This document shows, one piece after another, positions 5,729-51,386 of a DNA stretch of 64,000 bases. This DNA comes from Timema cristinae (Eukaryota > Arthropoda > Insecta > Phasmatodea > Timematidae): assembly GCA_039000515.1 (NCBI GenBank), contig JBCFYV010000012.1, positions 31,798,821-31,862,820 of the forward strand. Direction: 5' to 3'. The position numbers were made by a program, and so were the translations under genes. The notes beneath the pieces were generated by a model. The model was not told the origin of the DNA. It searched no databases and saw nothing but the letters and a program-made list of their open reading frames with translations. The number at the start of each line of letters is the position of its first letter. Positions within the stretch are counted from its first letter, which is position 1.

Positions 5729-6470
5729 AAGAATCAAATAGCCGAAGCTATTATTTATGCTTTTGATTGAGGAATTTTCCATCAAGATATCATATTCTGA
5801 AAATTTACACCTGGACACGGGAAAAAAACCCGGGACCTTTGGCTTAGTACGTCAATTCTCTAACCACTGAGCTATCCAGGAATCGTCCCGTGCCCAGGAT
5901 CATTCTTCACTCATATTTTAAGGCAGAGTCTATGATGGACGTGCGGAAATCATCGGTTACAAATGTGTGATTTGTTAAGATCACGAGCTATCAGATAACG
6001 CAGCCACCTTCGACACGGAGTTGGCGTCATGCTGCCACTTGTATAATTATTATAATTGTAAGGGATCGCATATTTAAGAATAAAATAGCCGAAGCTATCG
6101 TCAGACTATGATATTTTGATGGAGAATTCCTCAATAAAAAGCATAAATAATAGCTTCAGCTATTTGATTCTTAAATATGCGATCCCTTACAATTATAATA
6201 ACTGTACAAGTGGCAGCATGAAGCCAACTCCGAGTCGAAGGTGGCTGCTTTATCTGATAGCTCGTTATATTAGAAATCACACATTTGTAACCGATGATTT
6301 CCGCACGTCCATCATAGACTCTGCTTTAAAATATGAGTGAAGAATGACCCTGGTCACGGGGCGATTCCTGGATATCTCAGTGGTTAGAGCATTGGCGTAC
6401 TAGGCCAAAGGTTCCGGGTTCGATTTCCGTGTCCAGGTGTCATTTTTCAATTTTAAGAATATTCTAATAC
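5729..6470. repeat. Large foldback built from two inverted tRNA-headed SINE copies
   Basis: Arms at about 5798-6096 and 6148-6455 are inverted copies of each other at roughly 95% by eye. Each ends outward in a tRNA-like head; the right arm reads 'ctcagtggttagagca' (A box) and 'gggttcgatttcc' (B box). The loop (6097-6147) is itself an inverted copy of about 5745-5797, just outside the left arm, so a third copy of the inner segment exists. Confidence 0.85.
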
Positions 6471-14129: not shown

Positions 14130-17100
14130 TTCCCTCTCAACTTATCCCACACATATTGCAGGAACTAATGCCCGGTGTTAAGGAATGTGGCTACGAGACT
14201 CGTTGTTCCCTCTCAATCTCAACTTATCCCACACATATTGCAGGAACTAATGCCCGTGTATAGGAATATGGCAACGAGGCTAGTTGTTCCCTTTCAATCT
14301 CAACTTATCCCACACATATTGCAGGAACTAATGCCCGGTGTTAAGGAATGTGGCTACGAGACTCGTTGTTCTCTCTCAATCTCAACTTATCCCACACACA
14401 ATCCAGGAACTAATGCCCCGTTTCAAGGAATATGGCAACGAGGCTAGTTGTTCCCTCTCAATCTCAACTTATCCCACACACATTGCAGGAACTAATGCCC
14501 CGTGTATGGGAATATGGCAACAAGGCTAGTTGTTCTCTCTCAATCTCAACTTATCCCACACACAATCCAGAAACTAATGCCCCGTTTCAAGGAATATGGC
14601 AACGAGGCTAGTTGTTCCCTCTCAATCTCAACTTATCCCACACACAATCCAGGAACTTATGCCCCGTGTCATGGAATGTGGCAACGAGGCTAGTTGTTCT
14701 CTCTCAATCTCAACTTATCCCACACACAATCCAGAAACTAATGCCCCGTGTCAAGGAATATGGCAACGAGGCTAGTTGTTCTCTCTCAATCTCAACTTAT
14801 CCCACACACAATCCAGGAACTTATGCCCCGTGTCAAGGAATATGGCAACGAGGCTAGTTGTTATCTCTCAATCTCAACTTATCCCACACACAATCCAGGA
14901 ACTTATGCCCGTGTCAAGGAATATGGCAACGAGGCTAGTTGTTCTCTCTCAATCTCAACTTATTCCACACACAATCCAGAACTAATGCCCCGTATCAAGG
15001 AATATGGCAACGAGGCTAGTTGTTCCCTCTCAATCTCAACTTATCCCACACACATTGCAGGAACTAATGCCCCGTGTCAAGGAATATGGTAACGAGGCTA
15101 GTTGTTCTCTCTCAATCTCAACTTATCCCACACACAATCCAGAAACTAATGCCCCGTGTCAAGGAATATGGCTATGAGGCTAGTTGTTCTCTCTCAACTT
15201 AACCCACACACATTGCAGGAACTAATGCCCCGTTTCAAGGAATATGGCAACGAGGCTAGTTGTTCCCTCTCAATCTCAACTTATCCCACACACAATTCAG
15301 AAACTAATGCCCCGTGTCAAGGAATATGGCAACGAGGCTAGTTGTTCCCTCTCAATCTCAAATTATCCCACACACAATCCAGAAACTAATGCCCCGTTTC
15401 AAGGAATATGGTAACGAGGCTAGTTGTTCCCTCTCAATCTCAACTTATCCCACACACAATCCAGAAACTAATGCCCTGTGTCAAGGAATATGGCTATGAG
15501 GCTAGTTGTTCCCTCTCAACTTAACCCACATACATTGCAGGAACTAATGCCCCGTTTCAAGGAATATGGCAACGAGGCTAGTTGTTCCCTCTCAATCTCA
15601 ACTTATCCCACACACAATCCAGAAACTAATGCCCCGTTTCAAGGAATATGGTAACGAGGCTAGTTGTTCCCTCTCAATCTCAACTTATCCCACATACAAT
15701 CCAGGAACTAATGCCCCGTGTCAAGGAATATGGCTATGAGGCTAGTTGTTCCCTCTCAACTTAACCCACACACATTGCAGGAACTACCCCGTATCAAGGA
15801 ATATGGCAACGAGGCTAGTTGTTCCCTCTCAATCTCAACTTATCCCACACACAATCCAGGAACTAATGCCCCGTGTCAAGGAATATGGCTATGAGGCTAG
15901 TTGTTCCCTCTCAACTTAACCCACACACATTGCAGGAACTAATGCCCCGTATCAAGGAATATGGCAACGAAGCTAGTTGTTCCCTCTCAATCTCAACTTA
16001 TCCCACACACAATCCAGGAATTAATGCCCCGTTTCAAGGAATATGGCAACGAGGCTAGTTGTTCTCTCTCAATCTCAACTTATCCCACACACAATCCAGG
16101 AAATTATGCCCCGTGTCAAGGAATATGGCAACGAGGCTAGTTGTTATCTCTCAATCTCAACTTATCCCACACACAATCCAGGAACTTATGCCCCGTGTCA
16201 AGGAATATGGCAACGAGGCTAGTTGTTCTCTCTCAATCTCAACTTATCCCACACACAATCCAGAAACTAATGCCCCGTATCAAGGAATATGGCAACGAGG
16301 CTAGTTGTTCCCTCTCAATCTCAACTTATCCCACACACATTGCAGGAACTAATGCCCCGTGTCAAGGAATATGCCAACGAGGCTAGTTGTTCTCTCTCAA
16401 TCTCAACTTATCCCACACACAATCCAGAAACTAATGCCCCGTTTCAAGGAATATGGCAACGAGGCTAGTTGTTCCCTCTCAATCTCAACTTATCCCACAC
16501 ACAATCCAGGAACTTATGCCCCGTGTCAAGGAATATGGCAACGAGGCTAGTTGTTCTCTCTCAATCTCAACTTATCCCACACACAATCCAAGAACTAATG
16601 CCCCGTTTCAAGGAATATGGCAACGAGTCTAGTTGTTCCCTCTCAATCTCAACTTATCCCACACACATTGCAGGAACTAATGCCCCGTGTCAAGGAATAT
16701 GGCAACGAGGCTAGTTGTTCTCTCTCAATCTCAACTTATCCCACACACAATCCAGAAACTAATGCCCTGTGTCAAGGAATATGGCTATGAGGCTAGTTGT
16801 TCCCTCTCAACTTAACCCACATACATTGAAGGAACTAATGCCCCGTTTCAAGGAATATGGCAACGAGGCTTGTTGTTCCCTCTCAATCTCAACTTATCCC
16901 ACACACAATCCAGAAACTAATGCCCCGTGTCAAGGAATATGGCAACGAGGCTAGTTGTTCCCTCTCAATCTCAACTTATCCCACACACAATCCAGAAACT
17001 AATGCCCCGTTTCAAGGAATATGGTAACGAGGCTAGTTGTTCCCTCTCAATCTCAACTTATCCCACACACAATCCAGAAACTAATGCCCTGTGTCAAGGA

Positions 17101-18830
17101 ATATGGCTATGAGGCTAGTTGTTCCCTCTCAACTTAACCCACATACATTGCAGGAACTAATGCCCCGTTTCAAGGAATATGGCAACGAGGCTAGTTGTTC
17201 CCTCTCAATCTCAACTTATCCCACACACATTGCAGGAACTAATGCCCCGTTTCAAGGAATATGGTAACGAGGCTAGTTGTTCCCTCTCAATCTCAACTTA
17301 TCCCACATACAATCCAGGAACTAATGCCCCGTGTCAAGGAATATGTCTATGAGGCTAGTTGTTCCCTCTCAACTTAACCCACACACATTGCAGGAACTAA
17401 TGCCCGTATCAAGGAATATGGCAACGAGGCTAGTTGTTCCCTCTCAATCTCAACTTATCCCACACACAATCCAGGAACTAATGCCCCGTGTCAAGGAATA
17501 TGGCTATGAGGCTAGTTGTTCCCTCTCAACTTAACCCACACACATTGCAGGAACTAATGCCCCGTATCAAGGAATATGGCAACGAAGCTAGTTGTTCCCT
17601 CTCAATCTCAACTTATCCCACACACAATCCAGGAATTAATGCCCCGTTTCAAGGAATATGGCAACGAGGCTAGTTGTTCCCTCTCAATCTCAACTTATCC
17701 CACACACATTGCAGTAACTAATGCCCCGTGTCAAGGAATATGGCAACGAGGCTAGTTGTTCTCTCTCAATCTCAACTTATCCCACACACTATCCAGAAAC
17801 TAATGCCCCGTGTCAAGGAATATGGCAACGAGGCTAGTTGTTCCCTCTCAATCTCAACTTATCCCACACACATTGCAGGAACTAATGCCCCGTTTCAAGG
17901 AATATGGTAACGAGGCTAGTTGTTCCCTCTCAATCTCAACTTATCCCACATACAATCCAGGAACTAATGCCCCGTGTCAAGGAATATGTCTATGAGGCTA
18001 GTTGTTCCCTCTCAACTTAACCCACACACATTGCAGGAACTAATGCCCCGTATCAAGGAATATGGCAACGAGGCTAGTTGTTCCCTCTCAATCTCAACTT
18101 ATCCCACACACAATCCAGGAACTAATGCCCCGTGTCAAGGAATATGGCTATGAGGCTAGTTGTTCCCTCTCAACTTAACCCACACACATTGCAGGAACTA
18201 ATGCCCCGTATCAAGGAATATGGCAACGAAGCTAGTTGTTCCCTCTCAATCTCAACTTATCCCACACACAATCCAGGAATTAATGCCCCGTTTCAAGGAA
18301 TATGGCAACGAGGCTAGTTGTTCCCTCTCAATCTCAACTTATCCCACACACATTGCAGTAACTAATGCCCCGTGTCAAGGAATATGGCAACGAGGCTAGT
18401 TGTTCTCTCTCAATCTCAACTTATCCCACACACTATCCAGAAACTAATGCCCCGTGTCAAGGAATATGGCAACGAGGCTAGTTGTTCCCTCTCAATCTCA
18501 ACTTATCCCACACACATTGCAGGAACTAATTCCCCGTATCAAGGAATATGGCAACGAGGCTAGTTGTTCCCTCTCAATCTCAACTTATCCCACACATATT
18601 GCAGGAACTAATACCTCGTATCAAGGAATATGGCTACGAGGCTAGTTGTTCCCTCTCAATCTCAACTTATCCCACACATATTGCAGGAACTAATGCCCGT
18701 ATCAAGGAATATGACAACGAGGCTAGATGTTCCTTCTCAACTTATCCCACACACATTGTAGGAACTAATGCCCCGTATCAAGTAATATGGCAACGAGGCT
18801 AGTTCCCTCTCTACCTATCTCATACACATT
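14130..18830. repeat. ~82-bp satellite array, about 57 units
   Basis: Unit contains 'ctcaatctcaacttatccca', 'ggaactaatgccccgtgtca' and 'aggaatatggcaacgaggct'. Most units are about 82 bp; a recurrent variant lacks 'caatct' (76 bp) and has 'ggctatgaggctag'. Edge units are more diverged ('cccggtgttaaggaatgtgg'). A 644-bp eight-unit block is repeated in tandem (for example 17488-17673 equals 18132-18317), and a longer block recurs about 1.6 kb apart (15314 and 16927). Open frames of 60-114 residues here are translations of the repeat and stop according to unit phase. Confidence 0.97.
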
Positions 18831-18937
18831 TCAGGAAGATACTCCTCGGACACGATCGTCTCGTGCCATGCAACCATTTAACTGGAGCTAATTACTGATT
18901 GATCCTTCGACCTAACCTTCACCTCCACACCTAGGTT

Positions 18938-41215: not shown

Positions 41216-41968
41216 CTTACAGTAGGTTCATACCTTGCGGTTTACCGAGACGTTTTTCTTGTGTGATTTTCACTGGCATATGCAACGATATAGTATGTTT
41301 CTCACTATACGGTAAAACCCAATGCAGTAAAGAAAACCGAATCGTTTATATTTGCTGTCGTGAGTTGTCACTGAAAACTGTATGCGGCGTACGGTAAAAA
41401 AAAATAAACCGAACCGGTCGCAGTGGCTATAGTATCTAAACGAAAGAATTCACATAGCTCAGTTTTTTATACCATACGCCGCCCGCGCACAGTATGCGGT
41501 GGGAGGGGGTAGGTCAGGCAGTCGCTGCACTTGCTTATCGAAACTTTAACTTCATATGATGCCTTGACAACATATATCACGCTCGATCTTTGGTTCTACC
41601 TACACTAACAAGAGCACTGGAGAAAATTTGACACTAAGACGAGTTAGGAAGAAAGTTTTTTTTAGTGAATAGTAGCGAAAAAAAAATAGCTTTTTTCAAC
41701 GGTAACAAACTTAGGTTTTGGCACAGATTGTTGTAATTTACATGAACGGAACGTTCCATGTCCCTTAAAAGCTGTTTTTGCAATTGAAGCGTAGGCCGTA
41801 ACAACGTTGTAAGCGACAAAATTTTGAAAGTGAGATTTTCATGTAACAAGGTTGTATATGATGCTCTGCGTCCGTTAGTAAGAAAAGATCTCTCATTATT
41901 GGGCTGGTTATACGAGAAAAATGGTGGTGAAATGTTGGCAATCCTGATCTTGGCTGTAACAAGGTTTT

Positions 41969-44222
41969 ATGTACGCCAAAATGGTCGACAGATGTAATGT
42001 CACTCTTACACCATGTGCTCAAAAACATGAAAATCGGGGTAAAAAGAGGAAGAAAAATGTTAGTGAATGGAAGCAAACTATTCGAAAAAGAAATAGGGAT
42101 GCAGGGAAAGAGTATGTGAGTTCCAGAAATGTACAGAAGCCTGCATTATCAACACCAAATGAGGTACGTAAAACAACGTTGTATGTGATTGTGGAATAAC
42201 CTATGAGACTTTCGTGGTGGGTACTGTGTAGTGCCACAAATAAGTAGGGCTGGGCGGGATCCTAAATGGGCGGGAAAATATCGAGAGTTGTAAATGAGGG
42301 GGGGGGGGGAGTTTCCAACTTAAGCCTGTCTATTGTTAGTGAGCCAGACAGAGGGGTTTTAAACTAAAGAACCTTTAAAGGAGTTTTACATCCAAAGAAC
42401 TTTTGAGGGGTTTTAAACCTAGAGAACATTTAATTTAAAGGGGTCCCAAACCTAGCTAACTTTTAAGGGGTCTAAGCTTTTTTTTTAAAAGTCTCACTAC
42501 ACGAGCTCATTGATTAATATACATTTAATAACTCAAATTTGGCATAGATGGCTAAATATTTTTTCATAAATTTAATACGGCACAAATATATGTTTCAGGG
42601 CCGAATTTGCGCTTGCAATAAAGGCTGTTTTGCAAATGAAGTGAGTGCTCAGGAAAAGAAGGACTTATTCGCGAAGTTTCGCTCAATGGACTACAATGCA
42701 CAAACGTCATTTCTAGCCAATAATGTTGTTGAAGTTGTAGAACCAAAAAGGCGGAGAGTAGTAGAAGAAGCAGTATCCCGACGTCAGTGCACGGTTCTTT
42801 ACTGGCTAAAACATGGCATGGGAAAAGTTCGAGTTTGTAAAAAAAAACGTTTGCGACACATTTCAAGTAACTCCTAGACGTCTTCAGTTACTTGTTGATA
42901 AAATCAAGAGCAATACAGAATTAGTTGATAAGCGAGGAGTTCACCATAACCGGCCTCGTAGTGTTGCTGATAGAGTTAAGGACTTAATACACCAACACAT
43001 AGAATCATTTCCAAAGCAAGAAAGTCATTATAGTAGGGAAAAGAGCTCTAAAGACTGCCTTCCTTCGGAGTTAAATCTAAAATTAATGCACAAACTATTT
43101 ACAGAAAAATTTCCTGAATGCAATATTTCACTACGAACATACTCTGATGTATTCCACAGTGATTACAAGCTACGGTTTGGGTTTCCTCGTTCTGACACAT
43201 GTGTAACATGTGATAAGCTCTATGTTAAATTATGCGCATGTGAGGACGAGAAAGAAAGACAGCGCATATTGATAGAAAGTGAACTGCATCACAGGAAAGC
43301 AGAATCTGCTTATAGAAGTTTACAAGAAGATACCAATTTAGCAAAAACAAACCCTCAGTTACATGTTTTGTTTACAGATTTGCAACAGGTCTTGTTTTGT
43401 CCCACTTTGACACACTCATCAGTGTTTTACCAGAGACAATACTCTTCTTACAACTATTGTGTTCACGATGCGGCCACCCAAAACGCTACGATGATGTTAT
43501 GGCATGAATCGATAGGACATAGAGGATCCTGCGAGATAGCATCATGTCTCTTAAAGTATGTAAAGGACAACTTTCAACTATTAGAAGAAGGGTCAGAGCG
43601 AAAACTGGTTGTTTGGTCGGACCGGTGTGTGGGGCAAAATAACAACTACAGAATGCTTGTAATGTTTCAAATCTTAATTTTGTCCAAATACTTTACTCAA
43701 ATTGACCAAAAGTTTTTAACAAGTGGACATAGTTTCCTACCCTGTGACAGGGATTTCTCGCTTATAGAAAAGAGCAAGAAGAGAACAACTATAAATGTGC
43801 CTTTTGACTGGGTAGAAATGATAGTTAACTCACGGCCCAGTAAGCCATTTATGGTTACTCTAATGGAAAGAGAAGATTTCAAAGATTTCACGCCAAACGA
43901 AAAATGTCTGAGGAAAGACTCCTCACTGAAAATAACAGACGTCATGTGGCTACAGATGTCGAATGATGACCCTACTGCAATTCGAGTAAGGAAGTCTCAC
44001 AATGTTCTTCAGCCTTGGATGGCACATTCATTGTGCAAACCCAAGAAAGGAAGGCATGTCCAGAATATTCTTCCGCCATTGTGTGACATTGATCTTTTAA
44101 AGGCAGTTTATCCTATGCCACTTCCTATAAAAGAAGCAAAGAAGAAAGATCTAATGGAAATGTGCCAGTTTCTTTCACCAGAGCACCGAAAGTTCTATAC
44201 AGATCTGTTAGTTGCAACATAA
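41969..44222 (+). CDS. Probable transposase, DUF7869-like protein (two exons, one frameshift)
   Basis: Exon 1 41969-42163 (65 codons; an in-frame TAA lies just upstream, fixing the ATG) ends at GAG|gtacgt. Exon 2 42599-44222 follows 'tgtttcag'. Both junctions are phase 0, removing a 435-bp intron. Exon 1 gives a basic segment (NVSEWKQTIRKRNRDAGKEY). Exon 2 starts GRICACNKGCFANEVS, a Cys cluster. Within the long downstream frame (numbered from 42813) come CVTCDKL (Cys130/133), FTDLQQ (Asp189), WHESIGHRGSCEIASC (230-245), WSDRCVGQNNN (Asp270) and HSFLPCDRDFSLIEK (306-320). This order matches the arthropod family annotated as uncharacterised DUF7869-containing proteins. The spaced Asp/Glu residues suggest an RNase H-like DDE/D core (inference). 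The A9 run at 42839-42847 puts the two exon-2 parts out of frame by one base. Confidence 0.8.
42353..42475. repeat. Imperfect minisatellite inside the intron
   Basis: About four units of 27-33 bp built on 'ggggttttaaacctagagaa' and 'cttttaaggggt'. Lies within the intron of the putative transposase gene, just after a G-run (~42299-42309). Confidence 0.7.
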
Positions 44223-44868
44223 AGTGTTTAGTGTCCATGCAGATGCTACAAAAGTGCCGACACAAACAAGTGTAGTAATAGGCTGTTAGTGTTATTACTA
44301 TGTATATGTAAGTAATATGCATTATTTAATTTTTGACTAAAGCAAGGAGGATTAACACCATGAGTGGGATAATAGAGCATTTTAAAATTACATGTATCCA
44401 AATATTAGACACTGTAAAAGTTATGCCAACAAATTAAACAATATGTTTTAAGCTATACATGTATTTAGTTTGTATTCATATATAATTAAGTAATGTAGTT
44501 TTAAGTTACTCTACACTAATTATAATACTCAAATGTTTTTAAATCATAAAATCTTCAATCCGTAAAGCGTTACAATTTTACTTCTTAGTGCACTACTCTT
44601 TCAAACAATAGGTTTTCGTGTAACAACGTTGTATGTCACTGTACATATAACGTTGTTACATTGCTAATTGCTTTTTTTTGTTGAAAACTCACACATACTG
44701 AAACATACTAACGTAGAACACCTATATAATGACTTATGTATGTGTAATAACTTGCCAAGGATACTTATAAAATGTAGCATTAAATTTGGTCTCCATATTA
44801 GTTTTTCATTGTTTCCCAAAAGTTTTCAAAATGTCGCTTACAACGTTGTTACGGCCTACGCTTCAATT

Positions 44869-47354: not shown

Positions 47355-47985
47355 TTGTTTTATAACTCTGTTAAAAACTTATTTTCTACCAGTCTGTTCA
47401 TAACTGGTTCTCCTACAACTCTGTTAATATCTGTTTATTCTACAACTTCGTTAATATCGGTTTATTCTACAAATTTGTTAATATCTGTTTATTCTACAAC
47501 TCCGTTAATATCTGCTTGTTCAACTTTGTTAATATCGGTTTATTCTACAACTTCGTTAATATTTGCTTGTTCAACTCTGTTAATATCGGTTTATTCTACA
47601 ACTCCGTTAATATCTGCTTGTTCAACTCTGTTAATATCGGTTTATTCTACAACTTCGTTAATATCTGCTTGTTCAACTCTGTTAATATAGGTTTATTCTA
47701 CAACTTCGTTAATATCTGCTTGTTCAACTCTGTTAATATCGGTTTATTCTACAACTTCGTTAATATTTGCTTGTTCAACTCTGTTAATATAGGTTTATTC
47801 TACAACTTCGTTAATATCTGCTTGTTCAACTCTGTTAATATAGGTTCATTCTACAATTTCGTTAATATCTGCTTGTTCAACTCTGTTAATATCGGTTTAT
47901 TCTACAACTTCGTTAGTATGTTTGTTCTACAACTCTGTTAATATCGGTTTATTCTACAACTCTGTTCATATATGTTTGTCTTACA
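47355..47985. repeat. 51-bp satellite of two related half-units
   Basis: Unit made of a 27-bp half ('tctgttaatatcggttta' + 'ttctacaac') and a 24-bp half ('ttcgttaatatctgcttg' + 'ttcaac'). About 10-12 units, more irregular at both ends. Because 51 is a multiple of three, frames stay open for 111-141 residues with a 17-residue repeat; that is a by-product of the period. Confidence 0.95.
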
Positions 47986-48110
47986 AGTTTGTTCATGTTT
48001 GCCAGTCCCGCAGTGACATACTCTGTTCTGCCGAAGACAAATGCCAATCCACCCAGCCAGGATACTAAAGCTGAACTCCCTATCCCGTTAACGACGACAA
48101 CTAGAGTGTA

Positions 48111-50342: not shown

Positions 50343-50470
50343 CTATACTAAATACAGGATTACTCCTACCTAGACCAAAACGGAATGGGCCAGTTTCATA
50401 TGCGACTAAGTATGTACTAACTGGCCCATTTCATTTTGGTCTAGGTAGGAAACTTCTTGTATTTAGTATA
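50343..50470. repeat. Palindromic junction unit of the 91-bp array
   Basis: Arms of about 52 bp: 'tatactaaatacaggatt' through 'gggccagtt' and its inverted copy 'aactggccca' through 'tgtatttagtata'. This is the point where array orientation flips. Confidence 0.85.
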
Positions 50471-51386
50471 TCGCTGCACTTGAGGCGTACTAAGTCTGAC
50501 TGTGAAACTGGCCCATTACATTCTGATCTAGGTAGGAGTCTTCTTGTATTTAGTTATTATATCGCCGCACTTGAGGCGTACTAAATCTGACTATGAAACT
50601 GGCCCATTACATTCTGATCTAGGTAGGAGTCTTCTTGTATTTAGTTATTATATCACCGCACTTGAGGCGTACTAAGTCCGACTATGAAACTGGCCCATTA
50701 CGTTCTGGTCTAAGTAGGAGACTTCTTGTATTTAGTTATTATATCACCGCACTTGAGGCGTACTAAGTCCGACTATGAAACTGGCCCATTACATTCTGAT
50801 CTAGGTAGGAGACTTCTTGTATTTAGTTATTATATCGCTGCACTTGAGGCGTACTAAGTCTGACTATGAAACTGGCCCATTACATTTTGGTCTAGGTAGG
50901 AGACTTCTTGTATTTAGTATATCACCACACTTGAGGCGTACTAAGTCTGACTATGAAACTGGCCCATTACATTCTGATCTAGGTAGGAGACTTCTTGTAT
51001 TTAGTTATTATATCGCTGCACTTGAGGCGTACTAAGTCTGACTATGAAACTGGCCCATTACATTTTGGTCTAGGTAGGAGACTTCTTGTATTTAGTTATT
51101 ATATCACCGCACTTGAGGCGTACTAAGTCCGACTATGAAACTGGCCCATTACATTCTGATCTAGGTAGGAGTCTTCTTGTATTTAGTTATTATATCGCTG
51201 CACTTGAGGCGTACTAAGTCCGACTATGAAACTGGTCCATTACGTTCTGGTCTAGGTAGGAGACTTCTTGTATTTAGTTATTATATCGCTGCACTTGAGG
51301 CGTACTAAGTCTGACTATGAAACTGGCCCATTACATTTTGGTCTAGGTAGGTGTAGTCTTGTATTTTGTTAGTATAGCGCCGCACT
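50384..51386. repeat. ~91-bp tandem array, about 11 units
   Basis: Unit contains 'gcacttgaggcgtactaagt', 'tgaaactggcccattacatt' and 'ctaggtaggagacttcttgt', with 'ttagttattatatcgc' or a 4-bp-shorter form at the unit join. The array stops at 51386 because of the hAT insertion, and its next bases resume at 54337. Confidence 0.95.

Follow-up and report, generated by a model that had tools for sequence, protein, structure and literature searches.

In the genome of Timema cristinae, a 64,000-nucleotide stretch of contig JBCFYV010000012.1 (positions 31,798,821 to 31,862,820; hereafter the window) contains a single open reading frame (ORF) of 150 aa or more, a 469-aa frame that matches the Pfam domain DUF7869 (PF25273) and lies between two inverted repeats. 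The questions raised by this locus are whether the repeats and the gene form a mobile element and, if so, whether the DUF7869 protein is its transposase. The segment is very probably a copy of a family of DNA transposons with terminal inverted repeats (TIRs), whose one gene, in two exons, encodes a DUF7869 transposase with a DDD triad. The observations that carry this assignment are the ends, the copies, the target duplication, the empty sites of one copy, homology, a predicted fold and an invariant triad of acidic residues. The assignment provides a probable function for a Pfam domain of unknown function, and it names a testable catalytic triad as well as the target site and the sequences of the ends.

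Ends, copies and insertion sites

Perfect inverted repeats of 37 bp (41782-41818 and 44832-44868) bound the window element, as a previous, sequence-only reading of this DNA had reported; the longest perfect inverted repeat to arise by chance was 20 bp when the 3.7 kb around the element was shuffled 200 times with dinucleotides preserved. The four outermost bases of each repeat form the self-complementary tetramer AATT, and one copy alone cannot tell end sequence from target duplication. The T. cristinae assembly (1.29 Gb, 7,605 contigs) contains at least 96 matches to the protein, and the best 20 loci were read for their ends. Eighteen of these lie between inverted ends, including 13 with the ends of the window element and five with those of sister subfamilies, while the remaining two (L045 and L047) are truncated; the concern of the sequence-only reading, that the gene might also occur outside such repeats, is answered to that extent. 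The 13 copies represent 10 distinct sites and agree in their terminal base pairs; AATT flanks each of them at either end with no longer duplication, and among lengths of 1 to 12 bp only 4 bp fits the target duplication. The outer AATT of each 37-mer is the target duplication, and the element proper therefore has 33-bp ends (Table 1), so that the previously noted 37-bp repeats and AATT edges both stand.

Copies range in length from 2,665 to 3,101 bp and, among eight that were fully compared, seven are 98.7-99.8 % identical to one another and the eighth is 95.9-96.3 % identical to these. Two groups of copies share flanking DNA, with L038 and L039 having common flanks, and L041, L043 and L044 having a common right flank as well as 20 bases on the left. 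Either different contigs carry these copies or one contig carries them twice, and they are segmental duplicates or haplotypes left unmerged in the assembly. When the 33-bp end was used as a query with up to three mismatches, 38 matches were obtained genome-wide, compared to none for a reversed control. When paired, 30 of these ends give 15 facing pairs that span 2.6-3.5 kb, each of which encloses a listed DUF7869 match; of the eight single ends, four adjoin a listed DUF7869 match and four do not. As for miniature inverted-repeat transposable element (MITE) derivatives, no facing pair closer than 2.6 kb occurred among these 38 ends, the loci of which could not be cut out. All seven matches in the window to the 14-bp motif GTAACAACGTTGTA, allowing up to two mismatches, fall within the element.

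The clearest record of insertion comes from the copy at L037, which sits inside a repeat; read in frame, that host repeat resembles what we take to be a Copia-type reverse transcriptase. For the 10 sites, queries were made of the joined flanks with one AATT, and the query for L037 spanned the junction in all 40 of the 40 places that were found, whereas the other nine, including the window's own site, gave no scored match. In each of 30 L037-site paralogues that were fetched, the element is absent, the sequence continues without a gap and a single AATT is present. Therefore, the element was inserted at the L037 site and duplicated 4 bp in doing so; the empty site, which the sequence-only reading had proposed as a check, and the 4-bp duplication that it had considered are thus documented, the former at one of 10 sites and the latter with AATT flanking all 13 copies.

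These results bear on the idea that DUF7869 is a host gene family lying between chance inverted repeats, which would accord with the annotation of DUF7869 proteins as ordinary, uncharacterized genes in several animals. The 20-bp ceiling of the shuffled sequences and the recurrence of the same ends and AATT edges in 13 copies at 10 distinct sites leave it next to no likelihood, and the AATT-edged copies together with the empty sites refute it. Relatives are annotated as uncharacterized in fish, beetles, flies, a bug, a wasp and others, and such gene models may need to be masked as transposons.

Sister subfamilies in the same genome carry inverted ends of their own. With matching edge bases included, these ends measure 30-35 bp in L046 (54 % identity), in L048 and L049 (49 %), which represent a single site, and in L050 and L051 (48-49 %); the elements start with GA. 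The edges are AAAT/AAAT for L046, AATT/AATT for L048 and L049, and ATTT/ATTT for L050, with L051 having a mismatched ATTT/AATT. Because AAAT and ATTT are not palindromic, they must be real duplications. L046 and L048 contain, within their ends, AACAAC/GGTTGTAAC sequences that are related to GTAACAACGTTGTA. Between subfamilies, codon differences are lowest at position 2 (0.26-0.31) and highest at position 3 (0.61-0.65); no excess of position-3 differences was seen in the two close pairs compared. Recent movement is suggested for two subfamilies in the genome, the copies of which are nearly identical and have open frames. Additional genome matches at 32-39 % identity represent more distant DUF7869 subfamilies, several of them with no stop inside the match.

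The gene and its product

P0003, a full-length beetle relative from Diabrotica, aligns with the window element as an upstream and a downstream exon, on either side of a predicted intron (Table 1). In the window copy, the frame changes inside a run of A (42839-42847), and as a result the 469-aa ORF that begins at 42813 lacks the N-terminal part of the protein; in L037, L038 and L039, an open frame of 557-558 aa crosses the A-run region with no stop. Hence, of the one spliced ORF proposed by the sequence-only reading, the splicing is upheld by the P0003 exons and by the splice sites of the copies, but the intact single frame is not, owing to the A-run. The run length that shifts the frame in the window copy recurs in three other copies nearly identical to it; four near-identical copies at different sites (L032-L035) have this length in common, and defective copies may therefore have spread with protein supplied by others.

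The 469-aa ORF matches PF25273 with an E value of 2.7e-11 (43.9 bits against a curated cut-off of 26), and the match covers residues 224-391. Although Pfam gives no function for DUF7869, the matched region contains the second and third Asp of what would be an integrase-like core. The same domain was matched by all 58 animal-type and all 44 bacterial-type sequences that were scanned. Structure prediction for the protein gave a model, with a confidence score (pLDDT) of 91.5, that matches both retroviral integrases and the transposases of mariner elements, and predicted models contain the RNase H-type core that the sequence-only reading had proposed as a test, the ranked structure lists being filled by transposases and integrases. 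The structure search was aimed at the integrase-like core, and absence from its lists excludes no family. In a viral structure library, the best match was an IS4-type transposase (E 1.1e-3). One point takes a little from the confidence in the transposase assignment, namely that the Foldseek scores are weak.

Three Asp residues, D189, D270 and D312, are invariant in one set of 99 and one of 14 sequences, and their equivalents are invariant in 44. D189 and D270 had been singled out beforehand, with the third residue left open between positions 312 and 319. E319 was considered for that role, but bacterial relatives have K, R or another residue at its position and keep D312, and therefore, from the alignments, the catalytic triad is most likely D189-D270-D312. 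A separate observation concerns P0117, a gene model of Callosobruchus chinensis in which a transposase domain (Pfam PF13359) is combined with a partial DUF7869-like protein and which probably represents nested transposons merged by annotation.

Relatives of the protein also exist in bacteria. A single scan of GTDB genomes uncovered 11 loci, from Thiomargarita, Desulfobacterales, Nitrospirales, Legionellales and others, and all seven bacterial proteins tested match DUF7869 (E 5e-14 to 4e-25). Comparison of a profile of the 99 animal-type sequences with one of the 44 bacterial-type sequences gave a probability of 99.8 % over 504 columns. Among the 11 loci, six have the ORF enclosed, in the manner of an insertion sequence (IS), by inverted ends 30-61 bp in length, with TIR scores of 24-52 versus 9-15 for the second-best pairing, or for the best where no TIR was called. 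Four of these six have the ends ATGGGG..CCCCAT, and several contain a related inner stretch, e.g. AAAACCTACCTT. The sequence GGTGAA closes the inner part of the ends in L001, L003, L007 and L009, from differently named organisms, and is a candidate for a conserved binding site. The edge bases are only AT in L001, L004, L008 and L009, AATT in L007, and nothing clear in L003. Among the five loci with no TIR, L005 has a 661-aa ORF and 325 bases of left flank, the ORF of L006 begins at the contig edge, and L002, L010 and L011 contain partial ORFs. When the flanks of the bacterial elements were joined, no convincing host gene was restored; the left flank of L009 ends in what we take to be an IS3-type integrase. 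Of 781 relatives in all, 120 were listed, and the approximately 20 of these that carry a protein name are called 'hypothetical protein'. In NCBIfam, the seven bacterial proteins and the window protein gave at most sub-cut-off matches to unrelated models. Relatives were not found in IMG/VR contigs, whether by the window protein, by alignments of the animal or bacterial relatives, or by a 21-base end, nor in phage and plasmid records.

Since four copies share the frame-shifting A-run and may have moved with an outside protein, DUF7869 might be a passenger or regulatory gene within ends that another transposase mobilizes. Such an arrangement is highly improbable, as the element has no second long ORF, the four TIR sets in the genome and the six bacterial loci all enclose a DUF7869 gene, and the protein combines a predicted integrase-type fold with an invariant Asp triad. 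The role of DUF7869 as the transposase itself is well supported.

Relationship to known transposons

Shared TIRs, a fixed duplication with an empty site, a predicted RNase H-type fold and an invariant acidic triad are the features by which DDE/D TIR transposons are recognized, and by every testable feature the element belongs among the TIR transposons that encode a DDE/D-type transposase, as the sequence-only reading had argued, with cleavage and transfer activity being predicted. Its resemblance to integrases is one of the predicted core. The catalytic triad of retroviral integrases is DDE. These enzymes share the catalytic core fold of the model, with compact matches having a root-mean-square deviation of 2.7-3.3 over 122-140 residues, and IstA of IS21 and TnsB of Tn7 are among the first Foldseek matches, at low TM-scores. 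All three differ in their other terminal parts and in having DDE where the window protein would have DDD, and the gene described here belongs to a TIR element.

Several superfamilies fail as homes for the element because their target duplications differ. Tc1/mariner elements generally make TA duplications, according to the accessible part of PMC10045372, compared to AATT here, and the window protein matched no sequence in the PDB at E 10, whether Mos1, Metnase/SETMAR or any other. Kolobok and piggyBac do make 4-bp duplications, but these are described, in the portions of the literature available, as specific for TTAA rather than the AWWT (AATT, AAAT, ATTT) seen here, and the window protein has, from D270 to D312, no C/DxxH motif of the kind described for Kolobok. 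A distant branch of the ISAzo13/Zator group might be suspected from PF07592, which is weakly matched by eight of the 44 bacterial-type members (E up to 0.1, best 0.0019). That placement is very unlikely, for the one score displayed (L003, 14.5 bits) is below the curated cut-off of 26.9, the window protein itself has no PF07592 match, and Zator and ISAzo13 make 3-bp duplications, as given in the part of PMC10045372 that was available, against 4 bp here.

The closest comparison is with Sola2. By description, Sola2 elements produce AT-rich, 4-bp duplications, given as AWWT or as ATAT, AAAT or ATTT, and have TIRs and a transposase gene (excerpts of PMC3627910). The AATT, AAAT and ATTT observed in T. 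cristinae all fit AWWT, the pattern described for Dictyostelium, and come close to the AT-rich sites described for Polysphondylium, although this likeness too is one of description only. Sola is also said to have bacterial members. In the sections of the literature at hand, Sola elements are reported from bivalves, as insect MITEs and from an ostracod; the sources behind the Sola and superfamily comparisons, each available in part, are PMC10294476, PMC4455052, PMC12477816, PMC5199201, PMC7998251 and PMC9587614. The Sola2 elements quoted in PMC3627910, in its accessible text, have TIRs of 12-21 bp and an 888-aa transposase, versus 33 bp and roughly 600 aa here, though neither length is known as a defining feature and the comparison is again by description. 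The link to Sola is plausible and unproven, and it is as likely as not that the element belongs to Sola2 as Repbase defines it, in which case it would move in just the way proposed below, the Sola2 transposase would simply be known in Pfam as DUF7869, and the superfamily would not be new. The notion that DUF7869 defines a DDD transposase superfamily of its own, spanning animals, with AWWT 4-bp duplications, and bacteria, as an uncatalogued IS family with mostly ATGGGG..CCCCAT ends, and concealed until now by the labels 'uncharacterised' and 'hypothetical', is a tentative one that falls somewhat short of an even chance. Prokaryotic counterparts are reported for only some eukaryotic superfamilies, as far as the available part of PMC10045372 goes, and the bacterial elements would represent the counterpart of the animal DUF7869 transposons. 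No paper naming DUF7869, PF25273 or LOC126888407 was found in a literature search that had most subscription journals outside its reach.

Proposed movement and other features of the window

For its movement, the transposon would rely on the N-terminal Cys and helical segments of the full-length protein to pair its two ends, by binding both the 33-bp repeats and the recurrent GTAACAACGTTGTA sites, and on the RNase H-type domain, with D189-D270-D312, to cut and join DNA. The element would be cut out, in a cut-and-paste rather than a copying mode, and inserted at AATT, or AWWT in the sister subfamilies, through a 4-bp stagger, the repair of which would generate the duplicated AATT. The window copy, with its shifted frame, would require protein from another copy to move, if it moves at all. 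The features of the element, along with the positions of a dispersed repeat, are compiled in Table 1.

Table 1. Positions of the DUF7869 transposon, its parts and a dispersed repeat within the 64-kb window
Feature	Position	Strand	Basis or remark
TIR transposon, 3,079 bp	41786..44864	+	Ends at identical base pairs in 13 genomic copies
Left TIR, 33 bp	41786..41818	+	Perfect repeat; genome search of 33-bp end
Right TIR, 33 bp	44832..44864	-	Perfect repeat; genome search of 33-bp end
Left AATT of 4-bp target duplication	41782..41785	.	Single AATT at empty paralogous sites of another copy
Right AATT of 4-bp target duplication	44865..44868	.	As for left AATT
14-bp motif GTAACAACGTTGTA in left TIR, possible transposase binding site	41798..41811	+	Putative binding
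GTAACAACGTTGTA, subterminal copy	41843..41856	+	1 mismatch
GTAACAACGTTGTA, subterminal copy	41956..41969	+	2 mismatches
GTAACAACGTTGTA, copy	42170..42183	+	2 mismatches
GTAACAACGTTGTA, subterminal copy, right end	44620..44633	+	
GTAACAACGTTGTA, subterminal copy, right end	44646..44659	-	1 mismatch
GTAACAACGTTGTA, copy in right TIR	44839..44852	-	
Exon 1 of transposase gene, start codon uncertain	41969..42163	+	Aligned by tblastn to residues 14-59 of P0003; donor in all 8 aligned copies
Predicted intron, GT..AG	42164..42598	+	Of 8 aligned copies, all have the donor and 7 the acceptor
Exon 2	42599..44222	+	CxCx3C motif near start; A-run frame change in window copy
469-aa ORF, catalytic part of DUF7869 protein	42813..44222	+	
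D189 codon, probable first catalytic Asp	43377..43379	+	Invariant; end of core strand 1
D270 codon, probable second catalytic Asp	43620..43622	+	Invariant; after strand 4
D312 codon, probable third catalytic Asp	43746..43748	+	Invariant; start of the following helix
Dispersed repeat	2897, 3449, 4191, 9256, 12206, 21357, 35647, 45633, 62021		

The remainder of the window is rich in other repeats. A tandem array of about 4.7 kb occupies 14130-18837, with a period of about 82 bp and copies that are around 90 % alike, and two more arrays, which repeat about every 52 and 91 bp, are present at 47361-47993 and 50419-51386. The dispersed repeat, up to about 300 bp long and 86-98 % alike, occurs on both strands in at least nine places in the 64 kb and is possibly a short interspersed element (SINE) or other short element. 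Lastly, ARAGORN calls a tRNA-Ser with anticodon ACT at 6367-6438, which is perhaps a tRNA-derived repeat.
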